Of a DNA stretch of 64,000 nt, positions 41,247-49,433 are shown piece after piece. The stretch comes from Microbacterium resistens NBRC 103078 (lineage in GTDB: Bacteria > Actinomycetota > Actinomycetes > Actinomycetales > Microbacteriaceae), in contig NZ_BCRA01000021.1 of NCBI RefSeq assembly GCF_001552355.1, forward strand, positions 1 through 64,000, given 5' to 3'. The notes under the pieces were generated by a model, which saw only the letters and a program-made list of their open reading frames with translations, ran no database searches and had not been told where the DNA came from. The translations under genes were made by a program, and so were the position numbers. Position 1 is the stretch's first letter, and each line of letters begins with the position of its first letter.

Positions 41247-42083
41247 TCAATCCTGCAGGCGCGCGGCGGCGGGGAGGTCGATGACGCCCGTCTGTACGAG
41301 CTGCACGTCGCGCACCTCGCGCCCCATCAGCCGGTTGGCGAGCGCGGTGAAGTCGTCCGCCGAGTCCCCGGTGGCCTCATAGACGTAGCTCGGCTCGGCG
41401 TGCCGGTCGGCGAGCAGCTCGCCGCGCAGGAGCTGGCGGTACACGTCCGCGGCCGTCTCGTCGTCGCTGGAGACGAGCGTGACGCCCTCCCCCATCACGT
41501 ATCCGATGGCGCCGCGCAGGAACGGATAGTGGGTGCAGCCGAGCACGAGGGTGTCGACGTCGGCATCGCGCAGCGGCGCGAGGTACTCCTCGGCGATGGC
41601 CAGGAGCTCCGGGGAGTCCGTGATCCCCGCCTCGACGAACTCGACGAAACGGGGGCACGCCGCCGCGAAGACCTCCAGCCGCTCGTTCACCTCGAGCATG
41701 TCCTGGTACGCGCGCGACGCGATCGTCCCCACCGTCCCGATGACGCCGATCCGCCCGTTGCGGGTGGTCGACATGGCGCGGCGGACGGCCGGGCCGATCA
41801 CCTCGACGACCGGCACGTCGTAGCGTTCCCTGGCGTCCCTCAGCATGGCGGCGGACGCGGTGTTGCAGGCGATGACGAGCATCTTGACGCCCTGTTCCAC
41901 GAGGGTGTCGAGCACCTCGAGGGCGTAGCGGCGCACGTCCGCGATCGGCTTCGGTCCGTACGGCGAGTGCGCGGTGTCACCGATGTAGACGAAGGACTCG
42001 CGCGGGAGCTGCGCACGGATGGCCCTGGCCACCGTCAGCCCGCCGACACCGGAGTCGAAGATGCCGATGGGCGCGTCGTTCAT
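41247..42083 (-). CDS. murI: Glutamate racemase
   Basis: This 278-residue enzyme makes D-glutamate for peptidoglycan. '[18 protein letters not shown]' holds the N-terminal acid/base Asp-Ser; the two catalytic cysteines are in '[12 protein letters not shown]' and '[15 protein letters not shown]'. The start is ATG at 42083 ('[10 protein letters not shown]'); upstream extension lacks homology. It is divergent from pncB and upstream of rph-rdgB. Confidence 0.97.
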
Positions 42084-42156
42084 GATCCCCCAGCCTAGTC
42101 CGCTCCTGCGCGCCGCCTTCGCCGACGACGCCCGTGCCGCCCCTACACTGTGGGGC

Positions 42157-43482
42157 ATGACCGGCTCGAGCGCGCTGAAGACGGACCGCTATGAACTCAC
42201 GATGCTGGAGGCGTCCCTCCGGGACGGGACCGCGTCCCGCCCGTGCGTGTTCGAGCTGTTCTCCCGACGGCTGTCCGGGGGCCGGCGGTTCGGCGTCGTG
42301 GCCGGCACGGGGCGTCTGCTCTCGCTGCTGCGCGACTTCCGCTTCGGCGAGGAGGAGCTGCGCTTCCTCCGCGACGCGAAGGTCCTCGACGCCGAGGCCC
42401 TCTCCTACCTGGAGGGATACCGCTTCCGCGGCACGATCCGCGGGTATCGCGAGGGCGAGCTCTACTTCCCCGGTTCGCCGATCCTCACGGTGGAGGGGAC
42501 CTTCGCGGACGCCGTCATCCTGGAGACGCTGGCGCTGAGCGTGCTCAATCACGACTCCGCCGTCGCCACCGCGGCATCGCGCATGAGCATCGCCGCCGGT
42601 GACCGGCCCCTGGCCGAGATGGGATCGCGGCGCGCAGCCGAGGACTCCGCGGTCGCCGCCGCCCGGGCTGCATACATCGCCGGCTTCGGGGCCACGAGCA
42701 ATCTCGAGGCGGGACGACGCTGGGGGATCCCGACGATGGGGACCGCCGCCCATTCGTGGACCCTTCTGCACGACTCGGAGGAGGACGCCTTCCGCGCGCA
42801 GGTGGACGCTCTCGGCACCGAGACGACCCTGCTCGTCGACACGTACGACATCCGCACCGGCGTCGAGACGGCCGTCCGCGTCGCCGGCACCGGCCTGGGC
42901 GGCGTCCGGCTCGACTCGGGCGACCTCCCGATCGTGGCCGCGGAGGTCCGCGCCCAGCTGGACGAGCTCGGCGCCACCGGAACGCGGATCACGGTCACGA
43001 GCGACCTCGACGAGTACGCCATCGCCGCCCTGGCCGCCTCGCCCGTGGACTCCTACGGCGTCGGGACCTCGGTCGTGACCGGGTCGGGCTACCCCACCGC
43101 CAGCATGGTCTACAAGCTCGTCGCCCGCCAGGGATCGGACGGCGGTTGGGTCGCGGTGGCCAAGGCGTCCCAGGACAAGGCCTCTCGCGGCGGACGCAAG
43201 GCCGCGTTCCGGATCGTCTCGGACGGTGTGGCCCGGTCGGAGACGGTCGCGGTCTCCGACGGATTCGAGCCGGTGGAGACCGTGCAGCAGCACCCCGACG
43301 GGCGCGCGCTCCAGGTCATTCTCGTCGACAACGGCGAGATCGACACCGCCTACGAGGGAGTCGACGGCACCGCGGCCGCGCGCGAGCACCACCTGCGCGT
43401 CCGGGAGGAGCTCCCGGTGCGCGCCCTCGCACTGAGCAAGTCCGACCCCGCCATTCCGACCGTCTTCGTCGACGCCGGTTGA
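42157..43482 (+). CDS. pncB: Nicotinate phosphoribosyltransferase
   Basis: This 441-residue enzyme of NAD salvage links nicotinate to PRPP. Family motifs are '[18 protein letters not shown]', '[20 protein letters not shown]', '[12 protein letters not shown]', '[10 protein letters not shown]', '[13 protein letters not shown]' and '[14 protein letters not shown]'. The start is ATG at 42157, 73 bp from the divergent murI start. A strong 17-bp-arm hairpin follows its stop. Confidence 0.95.
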
Positions 43483-43501
43483 CCGCGCGTCCGCCCGAGC
43501 A

Positions 43502-43537
43502 CGAGGCCCCCGCATCCGGACGGATGCGGGGGCCTCG
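43502..43537. terminator. Terminator between pncB and the DUF3039 gene
   Basis: Exact 17-base arms (43502-43518 and 43521-43537) around a 2-base loop lie between convergent genes. It is a bidirectional terminator candidate; the second transcript (DUF3039 gene) ends 12 bp away on the other strand. Confidence 0.82.
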
Positions 43538-43549
43538 ACGCGTCGGGCG

Positions 43550-43816
43550 TCAGTTCTGCATGGATTCGTAGATCTCCTTGCAGGTCGGGCACACGGGGAA
43601 CTTCTCCGGATCGCGACCGGGAGTCCACTTCTTGCCGCACAGCGCCCGCACCGGCTTGCCGGTCAGCGCGGACTCGAGGATCTTGTCCTTCTTGACGTAG
43701 TGGGAGAACCGCTCGTGGTCTCCCGGCTCGATCCGCTCCTCCTCGAGGAGCTGTTCGAGTTCGCGGTCGAGGGTGGCGATCCCACCCTGATCGGGGGCAT
43801 CCAGCGGGGTACTCAT
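43550..43816 (-). CDS. DUF3039 zinc-ribbon-like protein
   Basis: This 88-residue actinobacteria-specific protein has a helical acidic N-half ('LDRELEQLLEEERIEPGDHE') and a small metal-binding-like C-half with Cys59 ('VRALCGKKWTPGRDPEKFPV') and 'CPTCKEIYES'. Three cysteines and nearby His residues suggest zinc. Function is unknown. Confidence 0.85.
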   Translation of the reverse strand: MSTPLDAPDQGGIATLDRELEQLLEEERIEPGDHERFSHYVKKDKILESALTGKPVRALCGKKWTPGRDPEKFPVCPTCKEIYESMQN

Positions 43817-43873: not shown

Positions 43874-45415
43874 TCACGCCGTCTCCACGAACTCCATCAG
43901 GCGCTCTCCGCTGCGCTCGAAGATGCGGGCGCCGATCAGCGCGCCGACCACGAGGACGAACACGCCCGTCGCGAGCCCCGCCCACAGTGCGGGGAACACG
44001 GATTGCCCGGGGTCGACCAGGGCGCTCCAGGCCAGCCAGATGGTCGGTGCGCTGAGGACGAGCGCTCCGATCAGCGTTCCGGCCTGCCCCGCCGCACCGC
44101 GGGACGCGGAGCGCTGCGGCTGCTGGAACGGGCTGTCGCCGGGCCGGGAGACCGCGTACGGAGCCACCACCGAGGCGATGCTCGACAGTCCCAGCCCGCT
44201 GAGCAGCAGACTCGACGAGACGCCGATGAATACGGGGAGCAGGCTCCAGCGTCCGATCACCGCGAGGGTGACGGGGACCGCGATCGCCAGGGCCGGCACG
44301 GCGATGAGGAGCACGGGGACCAGGCGGCCGAGACGATCCGGCAGTCCGCGCACCGCGCTGGCCACGTGGGTCCAGAACGCCGTCGAGTCGTAGGCGACGT
44401 CGTTGTGGGGGAGCCATCCGAAGAACAGCGCCATCACGGGCACGGGCAGCGCCGCGGCCAGCGCGAGCGGCACTCCCGCCACGAGCAGCGGGACGACGGT
44501 GAGGAGCCCCGCGATCGGGACGATGACGACGTTCACGATGTACCGACGGTCCCGCAGCCAGTAGACGAGGCTGCGCGCGGCGACGGCGCCGAAGGCGTTC
44601 GAGGGCAGCAGGGCGAACCAGCCGAGGCCCGGGCGCTCGCGGACCGCCGTGGCCCGATCGGCCCGGGTGAGCGCGCGGTGGACCAGCGCGGTCCAGGCGA
44701 CGCCGATGCCCGCGACGGTCGCGACCGCGACGACGCCGGCGACCCACGCGCCCGCGACGTCCCCCGCCGCGGCGAGGAACGGGAGAGCGACCGCGGCGCC
44801 GAGCGGCGTGAATCCGAGGACGTCGGCGGTCGTGTGCAGCGCTCCCGGCACAGCGCCGTCCCACCGCAGCGACGCGACGAAGACCCCGACCGGAACGGCC
44901 ACGACGACGATCGCCAGGGCGAAGAGGGCGGTCAGCTCCCGTGAGCGGCGCTCGGGGAGGATCAACGCGCTCAGCGCCATACCGACGCGCGCGGCCAGGA
45001 CGGCGGTGACGAACGCCAGGAGGGCCCCCGCGACAGCGAGATACCACGCAGCACCGAGCGAGACGGCCGCGAAGGCGACCGCCACGTCGACCGCCAGCAG
45101 CGCCGCGGACGGGACGCTGACCACCGAGGCCGCCGCGAGGATCGCCGGCATCCTCTTCTCGTCGACGCCGAACACCGCGAACCGGCGGGGGTCGAGCTGA
45201 TCGACCGTCCCCGCGAGAGCCGGGGCGAGGAAGTACCCGAGCACGATCGCGGATCCGCCCAGGACCACGACGGTGCGCGCCGAGTTGGGCGTGCTCTCGC
45301 CCAGACTCGTCACAGCCAGCACCGTGACGAGCGTCGCGGCGGCTGTCAGCAGGAATCCGACGACGGAGCGGATGACGCGTTCCCGGTCGCCGCGCAGAGC
45401 GCCGACCAGGAGCAT
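43874..45415 (-). CDS. Multi-pass ABC transporter permease
   Basis: This 513-residue protein has about 12-14 hydrophobic segments separated by short charged loops ('VVGFLLTAAATLVTVLAVTS', 'YILNVV'-type helix near the middle, 'ALIGARIFERSGERLMEFVE' at the end). It pairs with the ATPase gene immediately upstream (5 bp gap), together forming an exporter of the kind annotated as 'transporter' or ABC-2-like. The substrate is unknown. The start was chosen as ATG at 45415; the open frame upstream overlaps the ATPase. Confidence 0.8.
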   Translation of the reverse strand: MLLVGALRGDRERVIRSVVGFLLTAAATLVTVLAVTSLGESTPNSARTVVVLGGSAIVLGYFLAPALAGTVDQLDPRRFAVFGVDEKRMPAILAAASVVSVPSAALLAVDVAVAFAAVSLGAAWYLAVAGALLAFVTAVLAARVGMALSALILPERRSRELTALFALAIVVVAVPVGVFVASLRWDGAVPGALHTTADVLGFTPLGAAVALPFLAAAGDVAGAWVAGVVAVATVAGIGVAWTALVHRALTRADRATAVRERPGLGWFALLPSNAFGAVAARSLVYWLRDRRYIVNVVIVPIAGLLTVVPLLVAGVPLALAAALPVPVMALFFGWLPHNDVAYDSTAFWTHVASAVRGLPDRLGRLVPVLLIAVPALAIAVPVTLAVIGRWSLLPVFIGVSSSLLLSGLGLSSIASVVAPYAVSRPGDSPFQQPQRSASRGAAGQAGTLIGALVLSAPTIWLAWSALVDPGQSVFPALWAGLATGVFVLVVGALIGARIFERSGERLMEFVETA

Positions 45416-45420
45416 CAGCC

Positions 45421-47424
45421 TCAGTCGGAGAACGTGTGCAACCACTCCAGCCCCTCCACCTCGGCGATCCCGCCCGACAGCTCCACGAACCGCTGCTCGA
45501 GCGTCTGGCCCGCGCGCACCTCGTCCACCGTGCCCTCCGCGAGCACCTCTCCCCCGACGATGATGGCGATGCGCGAGCAGACCTGCTCCACCAGGTCCAT
45601 GCCGTGGCTGGAGAGGATCACCGTGCCGCCATGCGCCACGTAAGCGCGCAGGATGTCCAGGATGACCCCGGAGGAGACCGGGTCGACCGACTCGAAGGGC
45701 TCGTCCAGCACGAGGACGCGGGGCGAGTGGATCATCGCTCCCGCGAGCATGATCTTCTTCGTCATGCCGGCGGAGTAGTCCGAGACCACTCGGCTGAGCG
45801 CACCCGTGAGATCGAACGCGCGGGCGAGATCGACCGTGCGCGCTTCGACGACGTCGGCGCTCAGGCCGCGCAGGAGTCCGTAGTAGTGCAGGAGCTGGCG
45901 ACCCGTGAGGCGGTCGAACGTGCGCAGCCGGTCCGGCAGAACCCCCATGAGCTTCTTCGCGCCGCGGGGGTCCTCCGCACGATCGACGCCGCACACCCGG
46001 ACCGTCCCGGAGTCCCCGCTGAGAAGACCTGCGACGATCGAGAGGGTCGTCGTCTTGCCAGCGCCGTTCGGCCCGACGATCCCGTAGAACGATCCCGACG
46101 GAACGGTGAGGCTGATGCCGTCCACCGCGCGGGAATCCCCGAACGACTTCACGAGGTCACGGATCACGAGGGCATGCTCGGAGCCGTCGTCGGGATCCGG
46201 CAGCGAGGACACCACGACGGCGGGCGCGTCCTCGCCGCCGGTCTCCGCGCCGTCGTCGTCCGTCGTCGGGCCCTCCGCCGCGGTGCCTGCGCCGTCCGCA
46301 TCGGCGGCGGCCTCGCCGTCCTCGGGGGCTCCGTCCGTCGCGGTCGCCGCCGTGTCCTCGTCTGTCGCGGGCGATTCGTCCTGGGCCACGGCGCCGGCCG
46401 TCTCCGGGTGCGCCGCCTCCTCCGGCGCCGCGGGCTCGGCCGCCTGCCCCTCCGCCTCCGGCTCCGGCTCCGGCTCCGGCACGACGGTCTCCCTCGCCGA
46501 CGCTGCGACGTTCTCCGCGTCGCTCCCGGACGGCGCGCTCGAGGGATCCTGCGACGCGGCGTGTGTCATCCCGGCCACGTCCTCGGCGACGGCCGATTCC
46601 GTCGGACGTGCGGGAGCGCCCACCTCGGCCAGGTCCGCGGCCGCCGCCGCGCGCGACGCCGGGGACTTCCTCGCGGGGCTCGCCTTCGCCGGAGCCTTCC
46701 GCGCGGGCGCGGTCTTCTTCGCCGGTGTCGTGCGCCCGGTCGTTCCCTTCGACGCGGACGAGGTCTTGCGGACCGGGGCCGGCTGGTCCGGTGCCGACGC
46801 GGCATCAGGGGCGGTCTCGGCGCGCACCGGGGCCGCCGCCGCCGTCTTCCGGACGGTCGTCGACTTCTTCGCCGCCGTCGTCTTCGTCGTCTTCTTCGCG
46901 GTCGCCGGCTTCTTGGTCGTCGCGGGCTTCCCGGACGCCGCCGGCTTCTCTGCGGTCGCCGCGGATCCGGCGTCGGCCACGGCCTCGGAGACCGGCGCGG
47001 CGTCGGCCTTCTTCTTCGCCGTCGGGGACCGTCTCCCCGTGGGCGCGGGCGCCGGAGAGGACGCCTTCACCGCAGCCACCTTCGCCGCGGCGTCCTCCGC
47101 CTCTCGGGCCTTGGCCTCGGCTTTCGCCGCCTCCGCCTTCTCCGCCGCCGCTCTCGCCGCAGCGGTCCGCGCCGCCGCCGTGCTCGCCGCCGTCCGCTTC
47201 GTCTCACTCGTCCGCGCCGCCGAGCCCCGCGCGGCCGCGCGGATCTGGGCCGCCTTCGCTCGCTCCGCAGCGCTCACGCCGGAGCGGGCCGTCCCGGTGC
47301 GCTTGGTCGTCTTCTTGGCCGAACCCGCCGCCGCCGCGGAACCGGGCGACGCCGTCTCCGCGTTCGCAGTCGTCGGGGTCTCGTCATCGGACACGGGATC
47401 AGGCGGTGCGGGGCTCACCCCCAC
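45421..47424 (-). CDS. ABC transporter ATPase with ~415-residue disordered N-terminal extension
   Basis: The C-terminal ~250 residues (418-667) are an exporter-type ATPase: Walker A 'GPNGAGKTTTLSIVAGLL' (Lys457), a signature reading YSAGM instead of LSGGQ ('VVSDYSAGMTKKIMLAGAM'), Walker B 'VLVLDEPFESVDP' and switch 'LSSHGMDL'. Residues 1-417 lack homology: ~30-270 are Ala/Lys/Thr/Pro-rich and basic ('KKTTKTTAAKKSTTVRKTA', histone-tail-like), ~290-415 acidic ('PEPEPEPEAEG'). Related ATPases are ~250-300 residues. The start is GTG at 47424. It is operonic with the permease; the substrate is unknown. Confidence 0.83.
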   Translation of the reverse strand: MGVSPAPPDPVSDDETPTTANAETASPGSAAAAGSAKKTTKRTGTARSGVSAAERAKAAQIRAAARGSAARTSETKRTAASTAAARTAAARAAAEKAEAAKAEAKAREAEDAAAKVAAVKASSPAPAPTGRRSPTAKKKADAAPVSEAVADAGSAATAEKPAASGKPATTKKPATAKKTTKTTAAKKSTTVRKTAAAAPVRAETAPDAASAPDQPAPVRKTSSASKGTTGRTTPAKKTAPARKAPAKASPARKSPASRAAAAADLAEVGAPARPTESAVAEDVAGMTHAASQDPSSAPSGSDAENVAASARETVVPEPEPEPEAEGQAAEPAAPEEAAHPETAGAVAQDESPATDEDTAATATDGAPEDGEAAADADGAGTAAEGPTTDDDGAETGGEDAPAVVVSSLPDPDDGSEHALVIRDLVKSFGDSRAVDGISLTVPSGSFYGIVGPNGAGKTTTLSIVAGLLSGDSGTVRVCGVDRAEDPRGAKKLMGVLPDRLRTFDRLTGRQLLHYYGLLRGLSADVVEARTVDLARAFDLTGALSRVVSDYSAGMTKKIMLAGAMIHSPRVLVLDEPFESVDPVSSGVILDILRAYVAHGGTVILSSHGMDLVEQVCSRIAIIVGGEVLAEGTVDEVRAGQTLEQRFVELSGGIAEVEGLEWLHTFSD

Positions 47425-47676
47425 ACGGTATCAATCGGCGCGGGCTCGTACGGGAGGCGATCCGCGAATTCCCTGCTGCCGCGTAACATCGTGCTCGGAC
47501 AGACGCGTCGTCACGCCGCCCGTGTTCCTGGGAACGACCCGTGCAGTCGATCACGAAACGGCAACGGGCCTGCGCTTTCCCTGGGATTCCCAGGCGCGGT
47601 CACTAGCATGAACGACGGCACGAAGGAGTGTCTTGCCGGTTAACCAACCGTGAACACACGTAACAGGAGCAGTTCT
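47425..47676. other. Divergent promoter region, ABC ATPase / NTP transferase
   Basis: This 252-bp region separates two divergent genes. Near the NTP transferase it contains the perfect palindrome GGTTAACC (47638-47645) and a less GC-rich stretch, and AGGAG seven bases before the GTG. No small gene was seen. Confidence 0.4.
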
Positions 47677-48497: not shown

Positions 48498-49433
48498 ATG
48501 GCTGGCAAGGTGCATCGGATCCACTCCCTTCCGGAGGACGCCCCCTGGGACACCGGGCTGCCGCCGTCGGGCTCCGCGGAGCACCCGCTGGTGGTCCGCG
48601 GGATCGACCGCGTCCTCGCGGTCCAGCGGCCGCTCGTCCTTGCGCACATCCGCAGCATCCGCCTGCGCCACCCCGAGGCCACTCCCGCCCAGATCGTGCG
48701 CTCGCTGGAGCGCCGCTACCTGGCCGCGGTCACGACCGGCGGGGCGGCCGTCGGGGCGACCGCGGTCATCCCCGGCATCACGACCGGGGTCACCCTCGCC
48801 CTGTCGGGCGTCGAGACCGTGGGATTCGTCGAGTCGACCGCCCTGTTCGCGCAGTCGGTCGCCGAGGTCCACGGGATCTCCGTCACCGACCCGGATCGCG
48901 CTCGCGCCCTCGTCATGACGCTCATGCTCGGGAAAGAGGGCGTGGATCTGGTGGCCCAGCTCGCCGGGCAGGCCGCGGGCAAGGGCACGTCACGTCCGGC
49001 GTACTGGGGCGAGCTGGTGACGAAGACACTGCCGCGCGCGGCGGTGGGGCCCCTCGTCGACCGGTTGAAATCGATGTTCGTCAAGCACTTCGCGGCGGCG
49101 GGCGGCGCTTCCTTCCTCGGCAAGGCGCTCCCGTTCGGGGTCGGAGCCGCCGTCGGCGGGGCCGGCAACAACATTCTCGGCAGGCGCGTCCTGGTGGCCT
49201 CTCGGCGCGCCTTCGGCGTCGCCCCGGCGACGCTTCCGGCGGAGCTCGAGCCGGTCCCCGGGGCACAGCGCGTCGAGGCGAGGATCAAGCGCGGCGCGAT
49301 GCTCGCCGGCACCGCCGTCGCGGGCGCCGCCGGCTCCGCGGCGCGTGGCGCGGGCTGGATCGGACGCAAGGCGATCGGCGTCGTCCGCCGGGAGCGCGAC
49401 GGACGGACCGAGGAGCTCGGCACCGGCGACTGA
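48498..49433 (+). CDS. EcsC-like membrane-associated protein
   Basis: This 311-residue protein of unknown function has a central pair of hydrophobic Gly/Ala-rich helices ('GGAAVGATAVIPGITTGVTL' near residue 80), further glycine-rich helices near 190-235 and 260-285, and basic segments between. It resembles the EcsC/DUF697-like group loosely associated with ABC export in Bacillus. The start is ATG at 48498. There is no signal peptide. Confidence 0.6.
   Translation: MAGKVHRIHSLPEDAPWDTGLPPSGSAEHPLVVRGIDRVLAVQRPLVLAHIRSIRLRHPEATPAQIVRSLERRYLAAVTTGGAAVGATAVIPGITTGVTLALSGVETVGFVESTALFAQSVAEVHGISVTDPDRARALVMTLMLGKEGVDLVAQLAGQAAGKGTSRPAYWGELVTKTLPRAAVGPLVDRLKSMFVKHFAAAGGASFLGKALPFGVGAAVGGAGNNILGRRVLVASRRAFGVAPATLPAELEPVPGAQRVEARIKRGAMLAGTAVAGAAGSAARGAGWIGRKAIGVVRRERDGRTEELGTGD

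Follow-up and report, generated by a model that had tools for sequence, protein, structure and literature searches.

A long, mostly disordered arm of largely conserved charge order on the ATPase of a Microbacterium ABC transporter

In the mycobacterial ABC efflux pump Rv1217c-Rv1218c (PDB 8k1m, 8k1n, 8k1o and 8k1p) a double-length permease gene adjoins one ATPase gene. The same layout is found in a pair of genes of Microbacterium resistens NBRC 103078, which we analysed within a 64,000-nucleotide stretch of contig NZ_BCRA01000021.1 (hereafter the window), and the ATPase of this pair is sequence-related to Rv1218c (phmmer E 1.2e-33). The Rv1218c chains in the PDB, however, are 289-311 residues long and have no arm of the size carried by the Microbacterium ATPase, in which 411 of 665 residues precede the ATP-binding cassette domain. 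The best NCBIfam model for the ATPase is DrrA (TIGR01188), which scores 193.9 bits against a cut-off of 312.45 and so leaves the protein outside DrrA as modelled; its top sequence matches in the PDB are ABCA7, ABCA4 and ABCA1, and the arm is without a counterpart in DrrA-type and ABCA ATPases alike.

OpuA is an importer that has a CBS-domain sensor on its ATPase together with a substrate-binding domain; Pfam finds no CBS or substrate-binding family on either the ATPase or the permease here, which places the pair outside the OpuA type. The lysine-rich, low-complexity Lys/Ala/Pro/Thr tails of actinobacterial HupB/HU and HBHA are like the arm in composition, but the arm adds an acidic block, and sister clades have arms of another composition. 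That a disordered segment can control a transport protein is already known: in KtrB (PMC12059179) a basic disordered N-terminus contacts lipid and controls activity, neutralising its positive cluster halves Vmax, and the region is likened to the ionic-strength sensor of OpuA. The basic region of KtrB is short and sits on a channel, whereas the arm here is mostly 100-700 residues long and sits on an exporter-type ATPase. Charge-conserved disordered regions are also a known kind, and PMC6634968 reports highly diverged disordered regions that keep bulk features across orthologues; here likewise sequence is lost and bulk features are kept, in this case within one bacterial transporter family and with a mutation-matched test of charge reversal. 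A search of titles and abstract openings, covering part of the literature, returned no precedent for a bacterial ABC ATPase with a disordered arm of 100-700 residues, nor for an exporter ATPase whose arm combines this length with this order of charge.

The features discussed below are these:

43550-43816, minus strand: DUF3039 gene, third in the co-directional series, behind the permease (Pfam PF11238, E 8.3e-32)
43874-45415, minus strand: partner permease, 513 aa, a double-length ABC-2-like membrane protein, beginning 5 nt past the ATPase stop
45421-47418, minus strand: ABC ATPase gene, 665 aa, with GTG start at 47418 and stop at 45421-45423
45424-46185, minus strand: ATP-binding cassette domain, residues 412-665, with GPNGAGKTTT, the YSAGM signature and VLVLDEPFESVDP (Pfam ABC_tran, invariant columns)
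46186-47418, minus strand: N-terminal arm, residues 1-411 (basis: in-frame gaps, dN/dS, charge constraint and phylogeny)
46186-46566, minus strand: acidic block, residues 285-411, net charge -33
46624-47337, minus strand: basic Lys/Arg/Ala/Thr block, residues 28-265, net charge +32
47062-47271, minus strand: Ala/Lys/Glu segment, residues 50-119, ending in AAKVAAVKA, predicted to form a single long helix (AlphaFold2, clade alignment)
47425-47434, minus strand: extended -10 promoter element TTGATACCGT, with TACCGT at 47425-47430, 6 nt ahead of the start codon

A first-pass annotation had described a long basic-then-acidic extension on an ABC ATPase encoded at 45421-47424. The extension is real and the residue numbers given for it hold to within a few residues; the frame is open on the minus strand (667 aa counted from the GTG first noted), and of the gene as drawn only the start has to be moved, by two codons. 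The ABC domain begins at about residue 412-415 in the 665-residue numbering, and the arm runs in frame into an ATP-binding cassette of the ordinary type: Pfam ABC_tran scores 81.7 bits against a gathering cut-off of 25 (E 9.6e-23), which identifies the protein as an ABC ATPase, and GPNGAGKTTT, SAGMTKK and VLVLDEP are invariant or nearly so across 30 ATPase sequences. The arm contains no aromatic residue and is 5.8% hydrophobic, and its GC content at the three codon positions is 0.715/0.703/0.908, compared with 0.697/0.453/0.909 in the ABC domain. ABC_tran and overlapping P-loop models are the only folded families that Pfam places on the protein, and no Pfam match pointing to a hidden domain was found in the arm, where low-complexity handling could mask weak matches. 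With the same caution, a search for a second genomic site resembling residues 1-267 gave none at E up to 10 (150 of 416 candidates scored).

To locate the start of the arm, each in-frame ATG, GTG or TTG that precedes the ABC domain was checked for a TANNNT box lying 5-8 nt upstream. The Microbacterium set comprises 90 loci (L006-L095) with 894 in-frame start codons; three loci are cut by contig ends, and 86 of the 87 untruncated orthologues have such a site, exactly one each, with a spacer between box and start of 6 nt (79 sites) or 7 nt (7 sites) and the extended TGN form in 82 of the 86. The sole Microbacterium exception, L066, has its box farther upstream and a purine-rich, Shine-Dalgarno-like leader before an ATG. 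Among other Microbacteriaceae the box is present in 41 of 42 loci and extended in 39 (L185, which has it, and L196, which does not, are cut at contig ends), and in other families the pattern is looser, with the box in 16 of 20 loci and the extended form in 3. The element of the window is the single match in 64 kb with one mismatch allowed, 0.10 being expected. Because an extended -10 element with fixed spacing is conserved in the orthologues, the ATPase most likely starts at GTG 47418-47416, two codons below the one first noted, which gives 665 aa. A -10 element so near the start probably means that the mRNA is leaderless in Microbacterium. In M. tuberculosis, according to PMC3898074, most promoters are marked by a TANNNT motif whose centre lies 7-12 nt ahead of the transcription start, and of the genes with a primary start 26% are leaderless; by analogy, we infer that this rule also applies to Microbacterium. 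Orthologues that are nearly armless (L036, L037, L039, L044 and L049, with arms of 4-19 residues) have the same promoter type, and since the same promoter stands before long and very short arms, the arm fills the stretch from a fixed start to the ABC domain. For genes with low-complexity arms, a conserved promoter of leaderless type can thus fix the start codon where alignment of the arm fails.

Selection on the arm was assessed in orthologue pairs whose ABC domains share more than 88% nucleotide identity and whose arms have at least 80 aa; 59 such pairs were greedily cut to 30 that do not overlap, and their codons were aligned by nucleotide identity alone, which brings in no bias towards amino-acid likeness. 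Gap lengths were taken from the 17 closest pairs (ABC identity 0.905 or more), in which 92 of 92 gaps in the arm are multiples of three. Arm dN/dS is under 1 in each of the 30 pairs, with a median of 0.35 against 0.03 for the ABC domain, a figure that covers alignable columns only, as many arm columns cannot be aligned. The gaps keep the frame and dN/dS stays below 1, indicating that the arm is translated. An origin on the mirror strand, where the plus-strand ORFs 45436-47643 and 46106-47611 overlap the gene, was rejected on tests of the minus-strand frame: gap lengths, dN/dS and the partner gene fit that frame.

To compare exchanges made by one and the same mutation, we counted A/G differences at the first codon position where the other two bases are equal. 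In the arms of the 30 pairs the counts are 257/2084 for Ala/Thr, 20/132 for Gly/Ser, 16/1009 for Lys/Glu and 4/326 for Asp/Asn, so that the charge-reversing Lys/Glu exchange is about eightfold rarer than Ala/Thr (bootstrap range of the rate ratio 0.07-0.20), with the lower rate in 29 of 30 pairs. The low Lys/Glu rate is repeated in lysine-rich Microbacterium (19 pairs), lysine-poor Microbacterium (7) and other genera (4), and an earlier 26-pair subset with arms up to 450 aa gave the same picture. Lysine is also the best retained of 15 tabulated arm residues (0.87, as against 0.64 for threonine). Because Lys/Glu exchange is rare relative to Ala/Thr, charge is held while neutral residues drift.

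The order of the charges was examined from 198 loci, of which 16 without a promoter-defined start were dropped; removal of duplicates left 164 unique arms, and removal of those below 80 aa left 158. In 152 of the 158 the average acidic residue sits nearer to the ABC domain than the average basic one, a count that, like those that follow, is of related sequences and not of independent events. Charge shuffles, which like the pairwise controls only approximate a proper null for conservation of charge order, give z above 3 in 118 of the 158 arms and a reversed order with z below -2 in two (L192 and L194). By genus, a count that adds long arms to the 158-arm set, the charge dipole is forward in 136/136 Microbacterium arms of at least 80 aa and in 26/36 from other genera. 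In arms of at least 150 aa scanned in 50-residue windows, the most basic window reaches +5 or more in 153 of 159 and precedes the most acidic one in 155 of 159 (lysine-rich Microbacterium 78/78, lysine-poor Microbacterium 51/51, other genera 26/30); the basic patch is weak or absent in 6 of the 51 lysine-poor Microbacterium arms (L051, L060, L063, L156, L161 and L173). Taken by halves, the arms are less uniform: the N-terminal half is positive in 121 of the 158 arms, the C-terminal half negative in 148, and both in 113. A conserved balance of positive and negative charge was considered and rejected: acid far exceeds base in many orthologues, for example L083 (N-half -2, C-half -63) and L080 (-10 and -75). 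As read from these sequences, selection holds charge and, few exceptions aside, an order that is basic at the distal end and acidic next to the ABC domain.

In an AlphaFold2 model built with 30 sequences, 336 of the 665 residues have pLDDT below 50; all but 13 of those listed fall in the arm, where nearly all of residues 123-407 lie below that value. The arm is only partly unstructured, with a predicted helix at residues 50-119 whose block-mean pLDDT is 85-93 in residues 81-110; this segment is the best-conserved island of the arm in the window's clade (10 arms aligned), and its conservation may partly account for the confidence of the model. With this helix excepted, the arm is predicted to be an intrinsically disordered region. 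That the arm is translated, selected and mostly disordered, with its charge held and the order of charge mostly held, is a description in which we have very high confidence. Alignment of homologues, which the first-pass annotation had proposed as a check, agrees: the fusion is continuous, translated and basic-then-acidic across the genus and at most of the family loci that were sampled.

Sequence and length of the arm turn over fast across orthologues, with lengths of 3-724 residues. Arms of the window's clade run from Lys/Ala/Thr to Glu/Asp and those of other Microbacterium clades from Pro/Arg/Lys to Pro/Glu, and repeats such as AAKTAAAK, EPEPEP and VEEAP differ from species to species. At E up to 1e-85 the ATPase has a match in 144 of 149 genomes of the genus. 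A family search at E up to 1e-80 gave matches, some paralogues perhaps among them, in 121 of 150 genomes and in 69 of 85 genera; the Microbacteriaceae genomes listed as lacking a match are mostly small, at 2.1 Mb or less. The other-genus loci, 42 after five repeats were dropped, are mainly the best-scoring matches of the family search and form an uneven sample. For an ABC-domain tree, 158 rows were thinned to 119 at 93% identity; arms that are truncated (e.g. L009, L178, L181, L184, L187 and L196) entered at their visible lengths, and L236, L248 and L270 were labelled manually. The Microbacteriaceae form a clade of 98 rows (support 100/98): 86 with arms of at least 80 aa, 11 with shorter ones and one without a label; the remaining 21 rows, from 20 other-family loci and the own-genome paralogue, comprise 17 short arms and four without a label. 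On this tree the arm label needs five changes, four of them forced by well-supported branches, a count that carries no direction. Sixteen of the 20 loci from other families have 57 residues or fewer before the ABC domain at the nearest promoter-compatible start, and the remaining four have 13-182 open codons upstream. The arm was probably gained once, near the base of the Microbacteriaceae, and then shortened about four times.

A natural control lies in the same genome, where a paralogous ATPase-permease pair (C65:11350-13655; L002, L270) is armless. Its ATPase is 55% identical, has a related permease adjoining, and has an in-frame ATG five residues before the ABC domain; the open stretch above that ATG has no arm-like composition.

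The permease was called normal in the first-pass annotation, a description that misses the detail of a double-length protein with Rv1217c-Rv1218c as its best structural match. Foldseek places the pump entry 8k1p_A first (prob 1.00, E 5.4e-4, 585 alignment columns with gaps), and 8k1p, 8k1o and 8k1m are its top three, although the TM-score of the superposition is only 0.26; MATE, WzxE, MurJ and CLC folds follow at lower probability. VIA-align matches the permease to Rv1217c over 342-378 residues with Z of about 10 (10.2 over 378 at rmsd 13.2) and rmsd of 13-15, a Z below the value of about 13 under which, by the program's own caution, scores for helical proteins may say little; for the C-terminal half, mainly residues 263-507, it finds CcmB, NosY and ABCG with Z up to 15.5 over about 200-220 residues. 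The model itself has a mean pLDDT of 74.5 and pTM of 0.61. Pfam assigns no family to the permease of the window, seven weak families each matching at most 2 of 31 members, and a 31-sequence profile gave no match among PDB chains at E up to 1. From its predicted fold the permease is likely a tandem ABC-2-like protein.

The pairing of the two genes is stable: in a neighbourhood set of 80 loci (from Microbacterium, from genomes listed as Microbacteriaceae bacterium, or from unplaced actinobacterial metagenome bins) a permease match adjoins the ATPase in 79, as it does in 27 of 28 other-genus loci. In the 69 of these 80 loci that exceed 8.7 kb, a co-directional DUF3039 gene and a convergent nicotinate phosphoribosyltransferase gene are found in 69/69 and a divergent NTP-transferase gene in 66/69. 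Within the window, 41247-43816 holds DUF3039, nicotinate phosphoribosyltransferase and Asp/Glu racemase-family genes, which occur in 69, 69 and 61 of the 69 loci, the last count being possibly lowered by locus ends; DUF3039 also matches a zinc-finger family weakly. A 311-aa ORF at 48498-49433, for which Pfam gives nothing at E up to 0.001, is present nearby in 67 of the 69.

We tentatively favour a mechanism in which the arm is a disordered electrostatic element that tethers or tunes an Rv1217c/Rv1218c-like exporter by binding a polyanion, which we infer to be most likely the anionic inner membrane. On this view the ABC domain of the Microbacteriaceae ATPase came to be separated from a fixed, probably leaderless start by a long arm that is mostly disordered. 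The solved Rv1217c-Rv1218c entries hold two Rv1218c chains each; as the ATPases would act as a pair, a transporter would carry two arms. The distal Lys/Arg-rich part, with the Ala/Lys helix in the window's clade, would rest on the polyanion, likeliest the anionic inner leaflet, and the acidic proximal part would space the chain by repulsion, holding it extended and off both ATPase and membrane. Docking of the distal part may then set the position of the transporter, the ease with which the ATPase domains close, or both, and ionic strength would weaken it. Fast change of sequence under a persistent order of charge suggests a function for the charge pattern itself. An armless paralogue in the same genome, along with nearly armless orthologues, suggests that the arm tunes the pump and that the basic cycle runs without it. 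A more specific version, in which the arm would gate the pump as a sensor of membrane-surface electrostatics (lipid charge, ionic strength), built without a folded domain and selected for charge order instead of sequence, is in our judgement unlikely to be correct. Against the mechanism as a whole, several lineages have dispensed with most of the arm, 10 of 36 other-genus arms lack a forward dipole, and 4 of 30 depart from the order of basic patch before acidic patch.

We think rather improbable a mainly non-adaptive origin, in which a low-complexity tract grown by repeat slippage in very GC-rich DNA hangs free and is for that reason tolerated, its charge being filtered only to avoid harm. Lengths from 3 to 724 residues, repeats that vary between species, near-loss in several lineages and selection some tenfold weaker than on the ABC domain (median 0.35 versus 0.03) are what such an origin would leave, but a charge-reversing exchange held to about one eighth of the Ala/Thr rate, a charge order that persists while sequence is lost, and a long arm as the prevailing state (86 of 98 rows of the family clade) speak against it. 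The histone-tail likeness drawn in the first-pass annotation suggests another reading, in which the Lys/Ala/Thr block binds DNA or RNA and links the transporter to the nucleoid or to membrane ribosomes. The block is indeed rich in Lys, Ala and Thr, a composition resembling actinobacterial HU tails and H1, and lysine is the residue best retained; against a strict histone reading, Pfam finds ABC/AAA/SbcC P-loop families only, with no histone, HU-type or winged-helix domain in the ATPase at E up to 1, and the arms of other clades swap lysine for Pro/Arg-rich stretches with the acidic part dominant. The one HU-family match found in the genome is a separate gene on another contig, and an ATPase docked to its permease would meet anionic lipid first; we regard nucleic-acid binding as unlikely.

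Of the roles that had been proposed for the extension (self-association, nucleic-acid binding or tethering), tethering is the best fit. Separated blocks of opposite charge favour pairing, and the window protein is nearly balanced at +32 and -33, as expected if the blocks of neighbouring arms clustered transporters or if one arm formed a salt-sensitive latch on the ATPase; this balance is not conserved, as the halves of L083 and L080 make plain, and with acid in excess in many orthologues a self-neutralising association is disfavoured, leaving the polyampholyte reading a distinctly poor prospect. Very improbable, in our view, is an arm that is absent from the working ATPase through cleavage, with which the sequence is compatible, or through an internal start near the ABC domain. 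An in-frame ATG does exist at 46569, where the first-pass annotation had suggested such a start, but none of nine aligned close relatives has Met at that place, the promoter of the upper start is conserved in long and short orthologues, and the frame and charge above it are under selection; the internal start was rejected, and translation apparently begins atop the arm.

With more than 100 divergent orthologues, an armless paralogue and orthologues shortened by nature, the family offers a clean test of a disordered region held by charge alone, and the same ATPases can be used to ask whether a disordered arm places or gates a transporter. Two short motifs stand out in arms that are otherwise low in complexity. 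One, [VILF]PP[KRV]PPLP, occurs in 41 of 183 unique arms (e.g. L040, L048, L080 and L252), where shuffles expect 0.0; it is spread over 38 of 142 Microbacterium arms and three other loci whose arms are otherwise unalignable, and it looks like a docking motif for a partner. The other appears in the very long arms (609-724 aa) of other Microbacteriaceae genera as FVWSKRWPF in L251-L253 and VVFSKKWPF in L254 and L255, an aromatic-basic sequence that could be a membrane-interface anchor.
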